Shown: positions 17,068 through 63,056 of the stretch, piece by piece | How the letters are laid out: the number at the start of each line of letters is the position of its first letter | Position numbering within the stretch: the stretch's first letter is position 1 | Origin: Serratia oryzae | GTDB lineage: Bacteria; Pseudomonadota; Gammaproteobacteria; Enterobacterales; Enterobacteriaceae | Reading direction: 5' to 3' | Assembly: GCF_001976145.1 (NCBI RefSeq) | Contig: NZ_MOXD01000003.1 | Coordinates: forward strand, 62,001 to 126,000 | DNA length: 64,000 nucleotides | Translations under genes and position numbers: made by a program | Notes under the pieces: generated by a model | The model's database searches: none | What the model was told of the DNA's origin: nothing | The model's input: only the letters and a program-made list of their open reading frames with translations

Positions 17068-20000
17068 TCATTCCTTTGCATTTAAAAAACTGTCCAGCAA
17101 CGCCTGAGCTATCTGAATGGCCAGAGCGAAATCTAATTGATTGATCGCTTGGCTCAACGGGGACAATTTGTCACCAACCTGGTGACCAAAAGTCGCCTGT
17201 AATTGATTCATTGCCTCCAATGCCGCCATGTCTGAATTTTGTAACAGTAATATCAGAGCGTTAAGAGCTGAATCAAGGGTGTCGGTATATTTATCTTCTG
17301 CTGAGTCGGCATCCGTCACTTTCCCCAACAACAGGAGGCTCAATTCCACCATTCCAGCTTGAACAGATTGGGCCTGATCTTTTATTTCATTCAGCAACGC
17401 CTCCACCGCTTCCGCTGCGGGTAGCGGTTCTTCGTTCAATAATCGCTCCCCTTTACTGGCATTTTGTGACAAATGCGTGGCACCAAGCTGCGCCGCCAAC
17501 CCCTTGATCGTGTGTAACAAACGCGAAGCGGCTCGCCAATCGCGCTGGGCAACCAGCGTATCTAGTTGCCCAGGGAAATCGGCCAGTTCAGCGCCAAACA
17601 ACGAGAGCATTTTCTGCAGCAACGAAACGTCTCCGCCTAATCGATTAAGAGCCGATTCCAGCTCAATACCAGCGACCGTTGCCGCCTCTTTCCACTCCGT
17701 TAAGAGCGGTGAAAGCGTCTCTTTCTGCGTGACGATGGCGAGATCGGGTTGTTTACCGTATTTGCGTATCACGCGGATCAAATTGTTTAGATCAAAGGGT
17801 TTACCGATATGATCGTTCATACCCGCCGCCAGACAGGCATCGCGATCGGAAGCCATTGCATTGGCGGTCATGGCAATAATAGGCAGTTCCAATAGCCCCA
17901 GCGTGCTGCGTATATACTGCGTCGCGCTTAAACCATCCATCACCGGCATCTGCAAATCCATCAATACCACGTCAAAGGAAGAAGGGTTTTCCTCAAGTAT
18001 ATCAATTGCTTCCTGACCATGATTGGCAATACGCACCTTAGCGCCTTCGTCTTCCAATAGCTCACGGGCAATCTGCTGGTTATTCACGTTATCTTCGACC
18101 ACCAATAGCCTGATGCCGGATAGCTGGTGTGAAGACGCTGGCATCGGCCTGATTGACGAATTCTCAGGCTGTTTGCCATCGCTTAAGGCGTCCGTCACCG
18201 AATCCAGCAGCATTGAGGCAGTAATGGGTTTCACCAGATACCCATCAAGCAATGCCTGGTCTTCTTCGCTGCGCTGTAACAGCATTTCACGATCGTGAGC
18301 GGTGATCATCACAATCATCGGGACAATCCCTTCCGGCATCAGTTCACGTACTGATTTGCTGGTCTGCCAACCATCCAAGCCCGGCATTTGCCAGTCGATA
18401 AATAACGCTCCGTAGGTAATTCCCTGCTCGCGCTGTTGCTTCATCAACTGCAATGCGTCATTGCCACTGGTTGCCACATCGACGGTCCATTTTAACGATT
18501 CCCCCATGCGCTTGATCAGATCGCAGGCGGTAGGGTTATCGTCAACCACCAGGACGCGTAAATGATTTAATGCGTGAGCTCTGACGGCCAATGATTCTGA
18601 GTTCTCATTATCAATCGGCGGATGCGCAGGGAGTGGCAGCGTAATGGTGAAATGGAACAGGCTACCCTGGCCAAGCTGGCTTTCTAGTTCCAGTGTCCCG
18701 CCCATCAAAGCCACAAAACGTTGGCTGATCACCAAGCCTAGTCCGGAGCCGCCGAAACGGCGGGTGATCGAGGCTTCTGCTTGCGTAAACCCACTGAAAA
18801 TACGTTCCTGATGCTCAGGTGCGATGCCAATCCCAGTATCACGTACCCCAAATTCCAAGGTCACCTGCTGGTCGTCTTGTTTAAGCACCTTGATAAACAG
18901 TATCACCTCACCCTGTTCGGTAAATTTCAGCGCATTTCCACCCAGGTTAATTAATATCTGTTGCAACCGCATGCTGTCCCCGATCACAAATGTCGGTAAG
19001 AGCGGATCAATATCAAATAAGACTTCGACGTTTTTAACTCTCAGATTACTGGATAAAATAACGGATAGATCCCGCAGCATGGTATGAATATCAAACGGAA
19101 TGCACTCCAGAACCATTTTGCCTGATTCGATTTTAGAGAAATCCAAGATGTCATTCAGCAACCGTAGCAACGTGCGTGCAGCCGCTTCGATTTTGATAGC
19201 ATAGTCGGCCTGTTTATTATTCAGCCCAGTTTTTCTCAGTAATGTCATCATTCCGAGAATGGCATTCATTGGCGTCCGTAACTCATGGCTCATGGTCGCC
19301 AAGAAGGCAGACTTGGCATTATTCGCTGCTTCCGCCGCCAGCCTGGCCGCTCGAAGTATATTCTCATCCTCATGCTGCTGAGTGATGTCACGATTTATTC
19401 CCATCATTGAGACAGGGTGGCCATTCTCATCCCGTTCAACCATGCCGCTCGATTGAATAAAGCGGACCTGATTATTAATAACGATCCGGAAGTTCTGGCG
19501 GTAAATATTTTCACTTTCCAGCGCCATTTTCACCGCATGCGTAACGTCTTGACGATCTTCTGGATGCAGCAGGTTATACCAATGTTCTTGGGGAATAGGC
19601 ACATTGCATAACTCTTCGGGCAGCCCGTAAATATCGTTCATCCGTTCATCAAAAGAGAAGGTTCTATCAGGGATATTCCAAAACCAGATCCCCAATTCCG
19701 CCACTTCGGCGGCGCGGATCAGTTGGTTACGGGCAATGATCAGGTTGGTTTGCTGATTTTTACTGGCGGTAATATCAATCTGAATGGCGATATAGCGATC
19801 GATCTCACCAGCGCTGTTCTTGAACGGGGCAATCGTAGTGTCGACCCAATAAATACGCCCATCTTTGGCCTTGTTGCAAATCTCTGCACGCCAGGAGATC
19901 CCACTGGAAATATCGTTCCACATAGATTGCCAAAACTCGGTGGGATGAGTATGTGAGTCTAATAATCGATAATTTTGCCCAAGCAACTCTTGCCGTTGAT

Positions 20001-21630
20001 AACCACTGATTTTACAAAACGCGTCATTTACTTCCGTGATTAGCCCATGGCTATCGGCGGAAGAAATGATGCCATGTAAATTAAGGGTGCTCAGTAGCGC
20101 ATTATTTTCACGTAACGCCGCCTCAAGCCGTAGATAGGTTGCTTTACGTTCGCTGATATCCGACTCGATGGCCATAAAGCCAATAGGCTCATTCTGCTCG
20201 TTATAGCGAGGTTGGATTTCTAGTTCAATCCAGTATTCCTGTCCTGATTTAGAACGGTTTACTATTTCGCCATTAAAGGGTTCACCCGCATCCAATGCGG
20301 CCTTCATCGCCGCCGCCACTTTCTTATCCGTATTGGCACATTGTAATAACTTCCCAGGTGCCTGCCCCAGCACCTCAGTTTTACTGTAACCCGTGATCCG
20401 TTCAAATCCCTCGTTAACCCACACTATACGGCGGTCTATATCCGTAATAATCACGGCATTAGAGGTATTTTTCGCCACCAGAGCCAAACGCTCAAGATCT
20501 GCCGTCATATCACGCGCCAATATTTCTGCTCGGTGTCTTCCGCTTATTTGTTGGCGCAGTAATAGTGCCAATGCCGAACTGAGCACAAAACCAAAAGCAA
20601 ACAATAACCACGCCGCATAACGCTCCGTCATCAATTTAAAAGAAGGAGTACTGGCTACCCGCAGAGTCATTTGCCTGCCTGGCAATGACAATATACTTTT
20701 ATTCTCAAACACTCTTGTATTGATAAGGCGACTAAAGTAGCCATTATTGGGTACAAAATTGGGATCTTGGCTGCCATCAACATCAAAAATTAAATGTTGC
20801 CTGGATAAATCATCCAGGCTATCAAACAACTCGATGTCCACTTCCCCATTGGTAAACTTTGGAATATCACGCAGCAGATCGGCGATCACGATCGGAGCAT
20901 AGAGCAACCCCACCAAGGCTGCCCGCCGTTCAGCAGGCGTCACCGGCTTGGATCCATCAGCATAGACCGGCACAAACAGTAAAACCCCGGGAGTTTTACG
21001 GTTATCCTGCACTAAACTAATGGTGTCTGACAGCGTGGCTTTACCCGTATTAATCGCCAGTAATGCTGCCGCACGCCGGATCGCCTCAGAACCGATATCC
21101 AGCCCTTCAGCCCCCAGATTATCTTCTGTCGGCACAAGATACTTAACAATATACAGGTCGTCATAGTGCTTATCATCAAGCTGGTGAACGGTAAATGTCG
21201 GCGCGCCATCGGCCCTGGTCTCTGCAAGAAAAGCATCCAGATGGCTGCGCGGTACATGCTGAATAAAACCAAACCCACGCACCCCAGGGAACTCGACCGA
21301 CAGATTACGAGAGACAACATAAGAGCGAAACTGCTCGCGAGTTAAGTGGTTATTGGTCGCATAAGCACCTTTAGCCCCGTTCAGTCCATATACCGGCTGA
21401 TAGAAACGCCTGACGATCTCATCTGAGATTCTCTCAACATCGCGTTGAAACTCGGCCAGAGCATTACGTTCAATCTCATTATAAAGCCGCCAGGCACCAA
21501 CGCCTGAAAAGATCACTCCTACGATAAATAACAATATTGGCAACAGGTTAACTTGCTGTGACCTATATTTATCCCAGGAAAATAAGGTTTTCTGAGCATG
21601 AGCACTTTCACTTGAGTTTGGAGAAGCCAT
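17068..21630 (-). CDS. CHASE-PAS hybrid sensor histidine kinase with two receivers and Hpt
   Basis: This 1520-residue inner-membrane kinase shows, in order: transmembrane helix about 28-48; periplasmic CHASE domain about 80-290 (RGFGFIQHVPRS); second helix about 338-358; three PAS/PAC repeats about 385-760 (GYSKTEVLG, GYQRQELLG, WYNLLHPEDRQD); HisKA with phospho-His near 781 (MSHELRTPMNAILG); HATPase about 890-1005 (GTGIGIAPEHQ-like, GGSGLGL); receiver 1 with Asp near 1078 (FIDWQMPGLDG); receiver 2 with Asp near 1225 (LMDLQMPVMDG); and Hpt with His near 1373 (LLHTIKGLAAQLG). It has all parts for a His-Asp-His-Asp relay, with the adjacent receiver-GGDEF protein as the likely final acceptor. 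The ligand is unknown. Confidence 0.95.
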   Translation of the reverse strand: MASPNSSESAHAQKTLFSWDKYRSQQVNLLPILLFIVGVIFSGVGAWRLYNEIERNALAEFQRDVERISDEIVRRFYQPVYGLNGAKGAYATNNHLTREQFRSYVVSRNLSVEFPGVRGFGFIQHVPRSHLDAFLAETRADGAPTFTVHQLDDKHYDDLYIVKYLVPTEDNLGAEGLDIGSEAIRRAAALLAINTGKATLSDTISLVQDNRKTPGVLLFVPVYADGSKPVTPAERRAALVGLLYAPIVIADLLRDIPKFTNGEVDIELFDSLDDLSRQHLIFDVDGSQDPNFVPNNGYFSRLINTRVFENKSILSLPGRQMTLRVASTPSFKLMTERYAAWLLFAFGFVLSSALALLLRQQISGRHRAEILARDMTADLERLALVAKNTSNAVIITDIDRRIVWVNEGFERITGYSKTEVLGQAPGKLLQCANTDKKVAAAMKAALDAGEPFNGEIVNRSKSGQEYWIELEIQPRYNEQNEPIGFMAIESDISERKATYLRLEAALRENNALLSTLNLHGIISSADSHGLITEVNDAFCKISGYQRQELLGQNYRLLDSHTHPTEFWQSMWNDISSGISWRAEICNKAKDGRIYWVDTTIAPFKNSAGEIDRYIAIQIDITASKNQQTNLIIARNQLIRAAEVAELGIWFWNIPDRTFSFDERMNDIYGLPEELCNVPIPQEHWYNLLHPEDRQDVTHAVKMALESENIYRQNFRIVINNQVRFIQSSGMVERDENGHPVSMMGINRDITQQHEDENILRAARLAAEAANNAKSAFLATMSHELRTPMNAILGMMTLLRKTGLNNKQADYAIKIEAAARTLLRLLNDILDFSKIESGKMVLECIPFDIHTMLRDLSVILSSNLRVKNVEVLFDIDPLLPTFVIGDSMRLQQILINLGGNALKFTEQGEVILFIKVLKQDDQQVTLEFGVRDTGIGIAPEHQERIFSGFTQAEASITRRFGGSGLGLVISQRFVALMGGTLELESQLGQGSLFHFTITLPLPAHPPIDNENSESLAVRAHALNHLRVLVVDDNPTACDLIKRMGESLKWTVDVATSGNDALQLMKQQREQGITYGALFIDWQMPGLDGWQTSKSVRELMPEGIVPMIVMITAHDREMLLQRSEEDQALLDGYLVKPITASMLLDSVTDALSDGKQPENSSIRPMPASSHQLSGIRLLVVEDNVNNQQIARELLEDEGAKVRIANHGQEAIDILEENPSSFDVVLMDLQMPVMDGLSATQYIRSTLGLLELPIIAMTANAMASDRDACLAAGMNDHIGKPFDLNNLIRVIRKYGKQPDLAIVTQKETLSPLLTEWKEAATVAGIELESALNRLGGDVSLLQKMLSLFGAELADFPGQLDTLVAQRDWRAASRLLHTIKGLAAQLGATHLSQNASKGERLLNEEPLPAAEAVEALLNEIKDQAQSVQAGMVELSLLLLGKVTDADSAEDKYTDTLDSALNALILLLQNSDMAALEAMNQLQATFGHQVGDKLSPLSQAINQLDFALAIQIAQALLDSFLNAKE

Positions 21631-58818: not shown

Positions 58819-59805
58819 TCACACCTGTGGATGATAAGCAAACAGCGCCGGAGCCCCGCCGGTGTGAATGAACAGGATCGGGCCTTCGTCGCGGAAACGT
58901 TTCTGGGCGATGCCGTCAATCAGGCCCGCCATGGCTTTGCCGGTATAAACCGGATCGAGCAGCACCCCTTCCTGTTGCGCCAGCAGTTGCACCGCCGCCA
59001 TGCCTTCATCATTCGGCATGCCGTATTGCGGCGCAAAATAGTCGTCCCACAAAGCGATCGGCGCCAATGCCTCAATGCCTAGAGAACAGGCCAGCGCTTG
59101 CTGAATTTGCTCAACCTTCGGCAACTGATCGATCACGGTGCGTGAAACGGTCACGCCAATCAGCTCGCTGTCTGGCAGCAACTGCTGCAGGCCAACGGCT
59201 AAACCGGCGTGGGTTCCAGCACTGCCAGAAGCCACGACGACAGAACTGAAAGCGATATCGCTGCTCTGCGCAGCAATTTCCAATGCACATTGCACATAAC
59301 CCAGTGCCCCCAGAGCGTTAGAACCGCCAACCGGCACCACATAAGGCCGGAACCCTTGTGCTTCCAGGCGCGTAGCCAAATCTGCCAACTGCGTCTGCGG
59401 ATCGTGCAAGGCATCACACATCACCACCTCAACGTTGAACAGATCGAGCAACAGACGGTTACCGTTGCTGAGGTAGTTTTCCGCTTTAGTATCGATAGGG
59501 TTTTCCAACAACGCCACGCAGTGCAGGCCCAATTTGGCCGCTACAGCGGCCGTCTGGCGCACGTGGTTTGACTGGATAGCACCGGCAGTCACCAGCGTAT
59601 CAGCACCAAGGCGCAAGGCGTCTGCAGCCAGAAACTCCAATTTTCTCAGTTTGTTACCGCCCATCGCCATCGGCGTGACATCGTCACGCTTGATGTAAAT
59701 GTCGCGGCCGAGATAATCAGAAAGGCGAGATAACTTTTCGAGCGGTGTGGCTGAGCCAACAAAATCCAAGCGCGGGAACTGCGCCAGTTGCTGTTGCAGA
59801 TTCAC
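58819..59805 (-). CDS. dcyD: D-cysteine desulfhydrase
   Basis: This 328-residue fold-type II PLP enzyme converts D-cysteine to pyruvate, H2S and NH3. The PLP lysine is in [16 protein letters not shown], and the family motif [20 protein letters not shown] is intact. Start is GTG at 59805 after a GGGGGAAG. It belongs with the cystine transporter as a cysteine/H2S supply module. Confidence 0.95.
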
Positions 59806-60004: not shown

Positions 60005-60517
60005 TCAGTAGCTTTTTTGCCAGGCCAGATACTGATCGTATTTACGTAGCGCAATACGATAGTTAGCGTGTGCCGCGTACGGAACATCATCAATAATACG
60101 CTGGTGGCTAATTCCGTCGGCAAACTGCTCGGCAGGATAATTGTGCGCCACCAGCATTTCATCCAGCCGGCGCAGACGCACAACGTATTCCCGAATAGTG
60201 CTGTGATTCATCTCAGTCTGTTCAAACAGATACTGTTTAAACGCCATAATATCGAAGTAGCTGGGAGCGCTGTTATAAGCGATTTCGCTGCAGAAACGGC
60301 ATAGCGCCGTCAGTTCGCTTTGTACGTTGAGCCAGACCTGCTCATCAATCGACTTATCCATACGGGCAATGGTTTCTTTGCTGATGATTTTCCCGCGGAA
60401 AACCAGTGCCATACGATCAAGCACTTTACCACACTGAGAACAGTGGGTCTGGCTGTGTTTATAATCTTTCAGGTAGCGGCTAAGCGGCCGTTTCTTGGAT
60501 GGTATTATTCTTGGCAT
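60005..60517 (-). CDS. fliZ: Flagellar/curli regulator FliZ
   Basis: This 170-residue protein has the conserved N-terminus KKRPLSRYLKDYKHSQTHCS, a CxxC/C-F-C zinc-like pair (HCSQCG, CRFCSE) and the recombinase-like helix EYVVRLRRLDEMLVAHN. In E. coli FliZ represses RpoS-dependent promoters and modulates flagellar genes. The start at 60517 (MPRIIPSKK) replaces a TTG nine bases earlier. It is the last gene of the former fliAZ unit and looks intact although fliA is broken. It may be silent, or expressed from the remaining promoter. Confidence 0.9.
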   Translation of the reverse strand: MPRIIPSKKRPLSRYLKDYKHSQTHCSQCGKVLDRMALVFRGKIISKETIARMDKSIDEQVWLNVQSELTALCRFCSEIAYNSAPSYFDIMAFKQYLFEQTEMNHSTIREYVVRLRRLDEMLVAHNYPAEQFADGISHQRIIDDVPYAAHANYRIALRKYDQYLAWQKSY

Positions 60518-60549
60518 ATCGTGCAATCCGTTTCAGTAATCAGGTTGAA

Positions 60550-60673
60550 AGGCTGCAGGCTGGCGGGCAACCTGACTTGCAGGCGCAGCGCCTCGTGGAG
60601 TACTAACGGTACATAGCGATGCCAGAGAGAATTTTTATCTATTTACGCCTTCGGCGGTATACAGATCGCTCAC
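60550..60673 (-). pseudogene. fliA: fliA (sigma-28), frameshifted and truncated
   Basis: It begins at GTG 60673 (SDLYTAEGVN), then an extra base after that Asn codon (about 60640) causes a frameshift to TAA at 60635. In the next frame the homology resumes as SLWHRYVPLVLHEALRLQVR and LPAS, identical in nature to residues about 15-42 of E. coli FliA. It then ends abruptly in unrelated sequence before fliZ. About 80% of the gene, including both sigma DNA-binding regions, is gone. Confidence 0.93.
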
Positions 60674-60793
60674 TATGTCTAAACCTGCGAATAAGAGGGT
60701 CATAGCTATTATCCGCAAGGAGCAAAGCGCCAATCGGCAGAACAGCCGTACAAAATGCGCCTTATTTGCCCTTTGTCTTCTGATACAGACGTA

Positions 60794-60824
60794 AAAAAGC
60801 CCCGCCAACCTGCTCGGGGCTTTT
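60794..60824 (-). terminator. fliC terminator
   Basis: AAAAGCCCCG-agcaggttgg-CGGGGCTTTTTT on the minus strand; preserved past the fliC remnant. Confidence 0.85.
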
Positions 60825-60849
60825 GCGTCCAAATCTGCCAGCGAATAAA

Positions 60850-61035
60850 TTAGCGCAGCAGGCTCAGCACGTTCTGTGTTGACTGGTTGGCCAGTGCCAG
60901 CAATGGAGGTTACTTTTCCCATCGCACTATCGATAGTGACTTTTTAAGACTGGGTACCAGCACCAATCGCGTACAGATCACCCGTTGCATCATCGGTTTT
61001 ATAGCTAACGGGGGCTGCTTTTTTACTTTTCGCCA
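60850..61035 (-). pseudogene. fliC: fliC (flagellin), remnants
   Basis: The C-terminus remains as LALANQSTQNVLSLLR with the natural stop at 60850. Upstream, in another frame, lies variable-region flagellin sequence (KAAPVSYKTDDATGDLYAIG, and KVTIDSAMGKVTSI) with an in-frame TAA between them. The N-terminal D0/D1 domain and most of the protein are missing. A frame change occurs near 60897. Confidence 0.92.
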
Positions 61036-61096
61036 ATGGCGCAAATAACGCTGTTTTTCTCTCTTCTACTGCGCCATCGCTTTTTAGATTTTTACG

Positions 61097-61124
61097 TAAA
61101 CTTTTCTACTAGCGTAGCCGATAA
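61097..61124 (+). promoter_or_regulatory. Sigma-28 (FliA) promoter of fliD
   Basis: TAAACTTT-N12-GCCGATAA; consensus TAAAGTTT-N11-GCCGATAA. It lies 37 bases before the fliD ATG. Well preserved even though fliA is not. Confidence 0.85.
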
Positions 61125-61161
61125 CGCCAAGAATGAGTCATTGACCCTAGGAGAATCACGA

Positions 61162-61336
61162 ATGGCATCGATTAGTTCATTGGGCATCGGTTCAGAGTTG
61201 GACCTTAATAACTTGCTGGATAAACTGAGCAACGCAGAACAACTACGCCCGACGCCGTATACCACTCAGCAAACCAGCTATAACGCTAAACCGACCGCAT
61301 ATGGCACCTTGAAAGGGGCGTTGGAAAAATTCGCTT
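61162..61336 (+). pseudogene. fliD: fliD (filament cap), N-terminal remnant
   Basis: ATG 61162 after TAGGAGAATC. The reading is MASISSLGIGSELDLNNLLD, then AYGTLKGALEKF, as FliD residues 1-58. After about 58 codons it joins fliS. The frame continues out of register and stops at 61404. About 85% of the gene is deleted. Confidence 0.94.
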
Positions 61337-61627
61337 CGCGCACGGCTACTGATGAAACAAGGGAATATTGTTGGCAAGGGGCAAGCCATCTCGAAGGCGA
61401 TTAATATAATCGATAATGGCCTGAAGCACGGGCTTAATCATGAACAGGGAGGGAAAATTGCCGATAACCTTGCCGCACTGTATGACTATATAATACGCCG
61501 TTTGATGCAGGCCAATCTGCATAATGATACGGCAGCTATTGAGGAAGTCATCAATTTGCTGGAAAACATTGCTGACGCCGAGCGCCAAATTTGCCCGAAC
61601 TATCAACCTGCACAGGACGTCGTGTAA
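61337..61627 (+). pseudogene. fliS: fliS (flagellin chaperone), N-terminally deleted
   Basis: From about 61337 the frame reads RARLLMKQGNIVGKGQAISK and so on to AERQICPNYQPAQDVV with stop at 61625-61627. The first 40 or so residues are lost with the fliD deletion. The remaining frame is out of phase with the fliD start. An ATG at 61352 could start a fragment, but the flagellin-binding N-terminus is absent. Confidence 0.92.
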
Positions 61628-61989
61628 TGGAACAACAACTGTTATCTACCTATCAACATATTTACAACCTGAGTAACCAAATGATCGCCCTGGCTCAATC
61701 CCAGCAATGGGATGCACTGATTGAGTTGGAAATGACCTACCTTTGCGCCGTTGAAAAAACCAGCAACTTCGTCGCTGCCAACGGCTCATCTGCGGTACTG
61801 CAGGAGATTTTGCACCACAAGCTGCAGCGGATCTTGGACAATGAAGCTGAGCTGAGACGATTATTGCAACTGCGCATGGATGAATTAAAAGTCTTGATTG
61901 GGCAATCCACACAGCAAAATGTCGTTAACAACACCTACTGCCAATTCTATGACCAGGCACTGTTATTAGGAGAGCCGCAGTCCAGATGA
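61627..61989 (+). CDS. fliT: FliT (FliD chaperone and FlhDC antagonist)
   Basis: This 120-residue all-helical protein has ATG 61627 overlapping the fliS stop (TAATG). The N-terminus MEQQLLSTYQHIYNLSNQMI is typical, as is the length. FliT binds FliD and, when freed, blocks FlhDC. With fliD deleted its usual partner is gone. No lesion is seen, so it may be recently orphaned. Confidence 0.88.
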   Translation: MEQQLLSTYQHIYNLSNQMIALAQSQQWDALIELEMTYLCAVEKTSNFVAANGSSAVLQEILHHKLQRILDNEAELRRLLQLRMDELKVLIGQSTQQNVVNNTYCQFYDQALLLGEPQSR

Positions 61990-62297
61990 GTCTCAATCCC
62001 GATTATTTATTTTGAACAAGAAATAATACAAGATGCTATTATTAGCCTGCTTTATAATAACAGCGCTATGGTGCACTTGATTAACTCAAATGACATATCG
62101 TGCATGAACCTAAAAATTCACGCATGGCTTTTTTATGGATAACTCTGCTCCCGATATGGATGTTTTATGTTCAACAGGAAATTGACTTGTGCCCCATATT
62201 TTACTGAATAGTAACCTAAGGCAGATGGAAAAATGTTGCCGACGCGCAACGCAAAGCGTAAAGATATTCTCAGATCATGACTATGAAATGAATATCA
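61990..62297. other. Gap after fliT
   Basis: AT-rich; no gene seen. The E. coli neighbours of fliT (amyA, yedD, fliE onward) are absent here. Confidence 0.5.
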
Positions 62298-63056
62298 ATG
62301 GCACGCACAATTAATCTTAATCCCGGGATCGGGGCATCGGCACACCTAATTCAGCATTCTGGACTGGTGCTTACGTCCCTCTATTTTGAATACACTCACC
62401 TGTATCTGATACCGCAAGGCCAGACACGCGTGCGGTGGCAACAAGCGGATGTGGTAGCACATGCCGGTCAATTACTGATCGTCAACAGCAGCCAGACGGT
62501 GGATATTCTCAACACCGCTGCGGATAACGGCACCTTCAGTTGCCAACTGCTGATTTACGATCCTTTGCTGTTCAGTACCCTGTTTTGTGCGGTTGATCCC
62601 TCACCGCCCGCACCATTCAGTGGCGTCTTGGCGTTAAGCACCTTATCCAAGCGCATTTTTACATAGTTTCGAAGCAACAGCCCAAGCTCTGGCGCTCGAC
62701 GCACTTTTCCCACTGGTCATCACTCGTCATAAGATGCTTGAGATTCTGCTCTGGCTGGCCTACCTGGGCATCCGTTTTTACCAAACGAGATCACACGCCT
62801 AACGCAACGCGTGCGTCACTGTCTGGCCACCGATCCGCACAGTATCTGGACAGCCGCAAAAGTGGCACAGAGCTTGTCGATGAGTGAAGTGATGCTGCGC
62901 CGTAAACTGTCGGCAGAGAATATCACCTTGCGCGACCGGATGATCGATGTACGTATTTCTTTGTTATTGCTCCGCCCATTGTTGGCCTTGCAGAGTAAAC
63001 CGCAGAAGATTCCAGCGGCTGAAGCTAAAATTGCAACTTGTCGACCAAGCATCTAA
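62298..63056 (+). pseudogene. AraC-type regulator, frameshifted and decayed
   Basis: From ATG 62298 the frame reads GLVLTSLYFEYTHLYLIPQG and HAGQLLIVNSSQTVDILNTA, an AraC sensor domain, and stops at 62666. Recognisable sequence continues in other frames: QPKLWRS (about 62680), then TRLTQRVRHCLATDPHSIWT and SLSMSEVMLRRKLSAENITL, which is a first HTH. After MIDVR the second HTH is not recognisable and a stop comes at 63054. At least two frameshifts are implied. Confidence 0.8.

Follow-up and report, generated by a model that had tools for sequence, protein, structure and literature searches.

Structure of the Flagellar Locus

The analysed window, a stretch of 64,000 nucleotides (G000:C33:62001-126000), comes from a 5.01 Mb assembly of 81 contigs, scored as 100% complete, and includes a flagellar locus, which sits within a 530 kb contig. 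Positions below are in window numbering unless a contig is named. The neighbouring genes dcyD (58819..59805, minus strand; NCBIfam NF003032) and tcyJLN are intact according to tblastn and comparison with relatives, as the initial annotation of this DNA had reported. The closest named relatives of dcyD belong to Serratia, namely, S. rubidaea (90% amino-acid identity) and S. proteamaculans (88%).

The gene fliZ (60005..60517, minus strand), encoding a regulator of 170 aa, is intact; it matches the NCBIfam equivalog TIGR03823 over residues 7–168, and its score of 283.6 bits exceeds the cut-off (159.3). The gene fliA is reduced to a stub (60538..60673, minus strand; sequence and alignment) with a GTG start at 60673, whose frame ends after 12 codons owing to an extra base near 60643; homology stops at approximately codon 40–45 of 240, and the remainder is gone. 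Two scraps of fliC were found at 60849..61006 (minus strand; blastn and sequence), an inner piece carrying an in-frame TAA and the last 17–18 codons in a different frame, and the N-terminal part of the gene is missing. Codons 1–57 of fliD (61162..61332, plus strand; tblastn) are joined one base out of frame to codons 40–136 of fliS and its stop codon (61334..61627, plus strand, with the codons at 61334–61624; tblastn and sequence), a junction at which the genus member G006 is about 1.4 kb longer. The initial annotation had described a one-base insertion and loss of most of the gene in fliA, an internal stop, a frame change and a lost N-terminus in fliC, and an out-of-frame junction of fliD and fliS made by a deletion, and the base-level and tblastn checks agree with it on each of these lesions.

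The gene fliT (61627..61989, plus strand) is an open frame of 120 aa (NCBIfam NF007836, 125.1 bits against 116). Between fliT and fliE lies the broken remnant of an older gene, possibly of an AraC-type regulator (62135..62956, plus strand), the AraC-like match being weak and below the cut-off. An insertion relative to G006 was considered for the extra sequence between fliT and fliE and rejected: by blastn this part of it (62135–62956) matches sequence in the genomes G001–G004 and G022, in S. proteamaculans and in S. rubidaea, and is therefore older. The remnant is eroded in G005 too, and the stretches fetched from G006 and G007 contain no match to it.

Extent of the Flagellar and Chemotaxis Gene Loss

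The reference cluster was that of G006, compared by blastn and by tblastn with E. coli proteins. From fliZ to flhD it comprises 47 flagellar and chemotaxis genes over 41.8 kb in a single cluster, in the order fliZ, fliA, fliC, fliDST, fliE-R, flgL-N, flhEAB, che and mot genes, flhCD. The equivalent interval of the genome under study, G000, is 7.3 kb long: 35 of the genes are absent, eight are present as scraps (fliA, fliC, fliD, fliS, fliE, fliF, cheA and motB), and four are open (fliZ, fliT, flhC and flhD). The remnants keep the flag-1 order and the dcyD-tcyJLN flanks, as in G006, and the filament, basal body, export and motor genes required of a flag-1 locus are among those absent or reduced to scraps. 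The gene motA is gone and motB is frameshifted; tblastn matches of cheY and cheB in the window are only to other genes, located elsewhere. The damage continues past the end of the window as far as about 66.3 kb, and the largest deletion, which corresponds to about 31 kb in G006, fuses fliF to cheA outside the window, at 65176/65197. Just beyond the window, the tail of motB runs into an inner part of cheA in one open frame (236 codons; L093:1303-2013, minus strand), a chance fusion left by a deletion.

Profile searches of the whole genome at E 0.001 gave no matches for Flagellin_N, FHIPEP (FlhA/SctV), Flg_bb_rod or MCPsignal (chemoreceptors), and YscJ_FliF matched a single remnant. The search for a further flagellin gene elsewhere in the genome, which the initial annotation had proposed, was thus negative at this threshold. 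A second flagellar system as a substitute was ruled out, flagellin and FHIPEP both being without a match. Judging by gene content, the genes found in this genome cannot yield a filament, an export gate or a chemoreceptor. The conclusion of the initial annotation that no filament could be made from this locus therefore stands, but its view of the loss as local was wrong: the loss is complete, because the flagellin, FlhA/SctV, rod and chemoreceptor families are unmatched genome-wide, the lesions described first lie at one border of a more extensive loss, and the regulators fliZ, flhD and flhC are spared as full-length open genes.

Other features were observed on the same contig. A hybrid sensor kinase of 1520 aa with CHASE, PAS, HisKA, HATPase, receiver and Hpt domains is encoded at 17068-21630 (minus strand). 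A stretch of about 21.8 kb at approximately 147.9–169.7 kb of the contig G000:C33 (L094, L113) is unmatched in the fetched stretches of G006 and lies between matching stretches, which suggests that it is likely inserted or replaced DNA.

Retained Regulatory Genes

The products FlhC (194 aa) and FlhD (116 aa) both score above their NCBIfam cut-offs, and FliZ, FlhC, FlhD and FliT align over their whole length with relatives. FlhD matches solved FlhD chains end to end. FlhC matches E. coli FlhC of the structure 2avu end to end and keeps the CxC/CxxC cysteines of its C-terminal cluster, which has a zinc role. FliZ contains a Phage_int_SAM_1-like stretch, and a search of solved structures with its sequence gave no match.

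No frameshift, indel or stop was found in flhD and flhC against any of the five references. The frame of fliZ is open throughout, with no stop against any of the five; frameshifting gaps are absent against two of them and form one pair against the other three. For fliT, two to five frameshifting gaps were found against four references, and the comparison with G005 showed none; dcyD, the live control, has two such gaps against G005. The function of fliT is doubtful, and the gene is probably useless. FliT was rejected as a further kept gene, its omega not being separable from that of the dead set.

The fliAZ Promoter

The FlhDC-box-like element of the fliAZ promoter, which now stands ahead of fliZ, was located by conserved blocks and a pattern match at 60733..60767 (minus strand), with a -10-like ATAAT block downstream. 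The blocks AAATA, CGATT and ATAAT, invariant across 13 aligned sequences, are kept in G000. The fliA deletion ends just ahead of the leader of fliZ, and this leader is similar to the one in G005. The fliAZ upstream region keeps 55 of the 58 columns that are invariant in six relatives, and ahead of flhD the number kept is 222 of 241. The controls for this conservation are mixed: the live upstream regions of dcyD and tcyJ keep 63/66 and 74/74 columns, and among dead regions fliE-fliF keeps 90/119 and fliC-fliD 12/12, or 35/37 without G001. The box-like sequence predicts binding of FlhDC and activation at the fliAZ promoter.

The box pattern, which was fitted to fliA and flgB of G006, matches the fliA promoter and a second site in all six flagellate members of the genus; the second site is flgB in G006, and in the other five it lies 9.2–9.6 kb from flgL, as in G006. 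Extra matches in these six genomes number 1, 1, 1, 1, 2 and 3. In G000 the pattern matches the fliAZ promoter and three other places; the latter look like chance, the backward control pattern giving two matches there. In G006, a site very like the FlhDC box was observed outside the flagellar cluster (G006:C1:4087392-4087427, minus strand), a possible non-flagellar target of FlhDC in this relative.

Distribution of FlhC and FliZ in the Family

Among 295 sampled genomes of the family, matches were found for FlhC in 175, FHIPEP (a family that also covers type III secretion) in 219, Flagellin_N at E 1e-10 in 185 and FliZ in 158. G000 is the only one of the 175 FlhC genomes without FHIPEP and the only one without flagellin; in the genus sample, flagellin was found in six of seven genomes, with G000 as the exception. 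FliZ occurs without flagellin in G000 and G311, and without FlhC in G136, G188 and G311.

In G136 and G311, fliZ adjoins dcyD, and fliA, fliC, fliD, fliS, fliT, fliE and fliF are unmatched in the 18–20 kb fetched; all seven genes are present in G240 of the same genus. The sequence and gene order upstream of fliZ are common to G136 and G311 and are not found in G240; therefore, the loss of the cluster most likely preceded the divergence of G136 and G311. Comparison of FliZ between these two genomes gave an omega of 0.095, and omega 1 was rejected (p 1.6e-24): FliZ stayed under purifying selection in this second lineage after loss of the primary cluster. A further flagellar system may exist in G136, which retains one flagellin match and FHIPEP matches; both are lacking in G311. 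Over 19.5 kb, G136 is 98.7% identical to Serratia sp. M24T3 (L086), counted here with the second lineage and the only one of 80 named loci around dcyD with a fliZ match and no fliA match. Our guess is that G136 and this strain belong to Rouxiella.

A second kind of flagellar regulator remnant was observed in G188, in which fliA and fliZ stand together (L132, G188:C1:2778410-2779756), with neither fliC nor any other filament gene within the fetched 20 kb and no FlhC match genome-wide.

Codon-Based Tests of Selection

Omega was estimated with a codon model (own script) on nine genomes, the G000 branch being compared with the background. For flhDC it was 0.070 on the G000 branch versus 0.071, and for fliZ 0.090 versus 0.104; omega 1 was rejected in both cases (p 4.9e-11 and p 3.3e-4, respectively). 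The values were 0.035 versus 0.052 for dcyD and tcyJ, 0.331 versus 0.175 for fliT (p 0.17) and 0.254 versus 0.098 for the pooled dead fragments (650 codons; p 2.8e-7).

With other genomes as foreground, the same gene set was also raised in G005 (omega 0.197, p 0.0019), where fliD, fliS, cheA and motB are full-length and fliE and fliF lie outside the stretches fetched, and in G022 (0.160, p 0.023); it was low in G003 (0.050, p 0.0067). Omega of fliZ varies as well, reaching 0.230 in G006 (p 0.017). In a joint model, the dead set of G000 did not differ from the same genes in G005 (p 0.30). After these comparisons the branch test was dropped as decisive. Since the joint model fails to separate the two genomes, the flagellar loss looks recent on the scale of the branch, and the codon test cannot prove that flhDC stayed constrained once the flagella were gone.

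The full-length flagellar genes with raised omega in G005 (L121, L127) perhaps reflect relaxed constraint in this relative, which has four further flagellin-family matches.

Discussion

Flagellar-locus decay is known from Sodalis and Rouxiella chamberiensis, so the broken locus described in the initial annotation is by itself ordinary. Sodalis symbionts are reported to have eroded flag-1 loci (PMC7526173); as in G000, flagellar and chemotaxis genes of a non-motile enteric are missing or have become pseudogenes. In the same account, fliZ is among the genes lacking in the Sodalis flag-4 loci and also, in S. praecaptivus, in a flag-1 locus that is complete in other respects, whereas in G000 fliZ and flhDC are what remains, in a genome of 5.0 Mb. 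For R. chamberiensis, loss of flag-1 is reported (PMC6993521); similarly, the primary cluster is gone from G000 and from G136, G311 and L086, which keep fliZ beside dcyD. G000 differs from G136 and G311, which are without FlhC, in keeping flhDC and the fliAZ promoter.

The same regulators have been described in other enterics. FlhDC is reported to activate fliZ via the fliA promoter in EHEC, where FliZ in turn reduces the activity of sigma-S and alters acid-resistance and LEE genes (PMC4287178), and FliZ of Xenorhabdus nematophila controls 278 genes directly or indirectly (PMC3814329). Both bacteria, in these accounts, keep flagellar genes, whereas G000 has nothing flagellar left to control. 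At the sequence level, wiring of the EHEC type is present in G000, although sigma-28 and the structural genes are gone, and it may still be in use.

A stripped circuit from FlhDC to FliZ may have been retained for non-flagellar genes, a reading to which we assign a probability of about 0.58. A formerly motile lineage would have lost its flagellar and chemotaxis cluster by several deletions and small lesions, leaving an undamaged control layer, namely, the master activator FlhDC and the DNA-binding regulator FliZ, encoded at opposite ends of the cluster, and a putatively FlhDC-responsive fliAZ promoter. Following the deletion of fliA, this promoter would lead across the 12-codon stub to fliZ, FlhDC would still activate fliZ expression, and FliZ would still tune non-flagellar targets, as it is reported to do in E. 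coli and Xenorhabdus; selection on FlhDC would have continued after the loss. The chances are about even for the broader claim that an orphan circuit, free of flagella, sigma-28 and chemotaxis, is selected for a non-flagellar programme and that FliZ survival after cluster loss is recurrent in enterics; against the circuit, flhDC and fliZ occupy the two ends of the cluster and so escape deletions of its inner part, and it is represented by one genome.

Somewhat less probable is ordinary reductive loss caught early, in which FlhDC and FliZ would be useless too, spared by chance and by their position at the cluster ends. Such a loss agrees with the dead fragments being still 62–87% identical to relatives at the amino-acid level, with the joint codon model, which does not part G000 from the flagellate G005, with the equally open fliT and its omega of 0.331, and with the well-kept dead fliC-fliD intergenic region. 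Yet deletions or small lesions are found in fliA, fliC, fliD, fliS, fliE, fliF, cheA, motB and motA and none in flhD, flhC and fliZ, and in G136 and G311 FliZ long outlasted the loss of the cluster. Moreover, on the simple assumption that flhDC turned neutral when the dead set did, its omega would be too low (p 4.5e-4; fliZ p 0.028; both 3.3e-5), a dating that leans on the contested omega excess of the dead fragments.

It is unlikely that FliZ alone is kept for a purpose, with FlhDC as a passenger and fliZ read from another promoter. G136 and G311, which keep FliZ without any FlhC match, offer a precedent for this arrangement, but G000 has an undamaged flhDC with a largely conserved upstream region, and the FlhDC-box-like element ahead of fliZ is kept. 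An assembly or sequencing error that makes genes appear broken or absent is highly improbable: the assembly is a draft, but the locus lies well inside a long contig, and the four families remain unmatched in a genome complete by score.

A literature search, mostly outside which subscription papers fall, returned no paper on point for flhDC or fliZ kept without flagella, Serratia and Rouxiella included. The survival of FlhDC and FliZ after loss of everything they build, seen in one of the 175 FlhC genomes sampled, was not found in print in this search. FlhDC and FliZ affect many non-flagellar genes, effects that are difficult to tell apart from motility as long as the bacterium swims. A natural strain with the regulators and the promoter and no flagellum would be a clean setting for studying what else they do, and would reveal the layer of a large regulon that goes last; in this lineage, the old switch may now govern something else.
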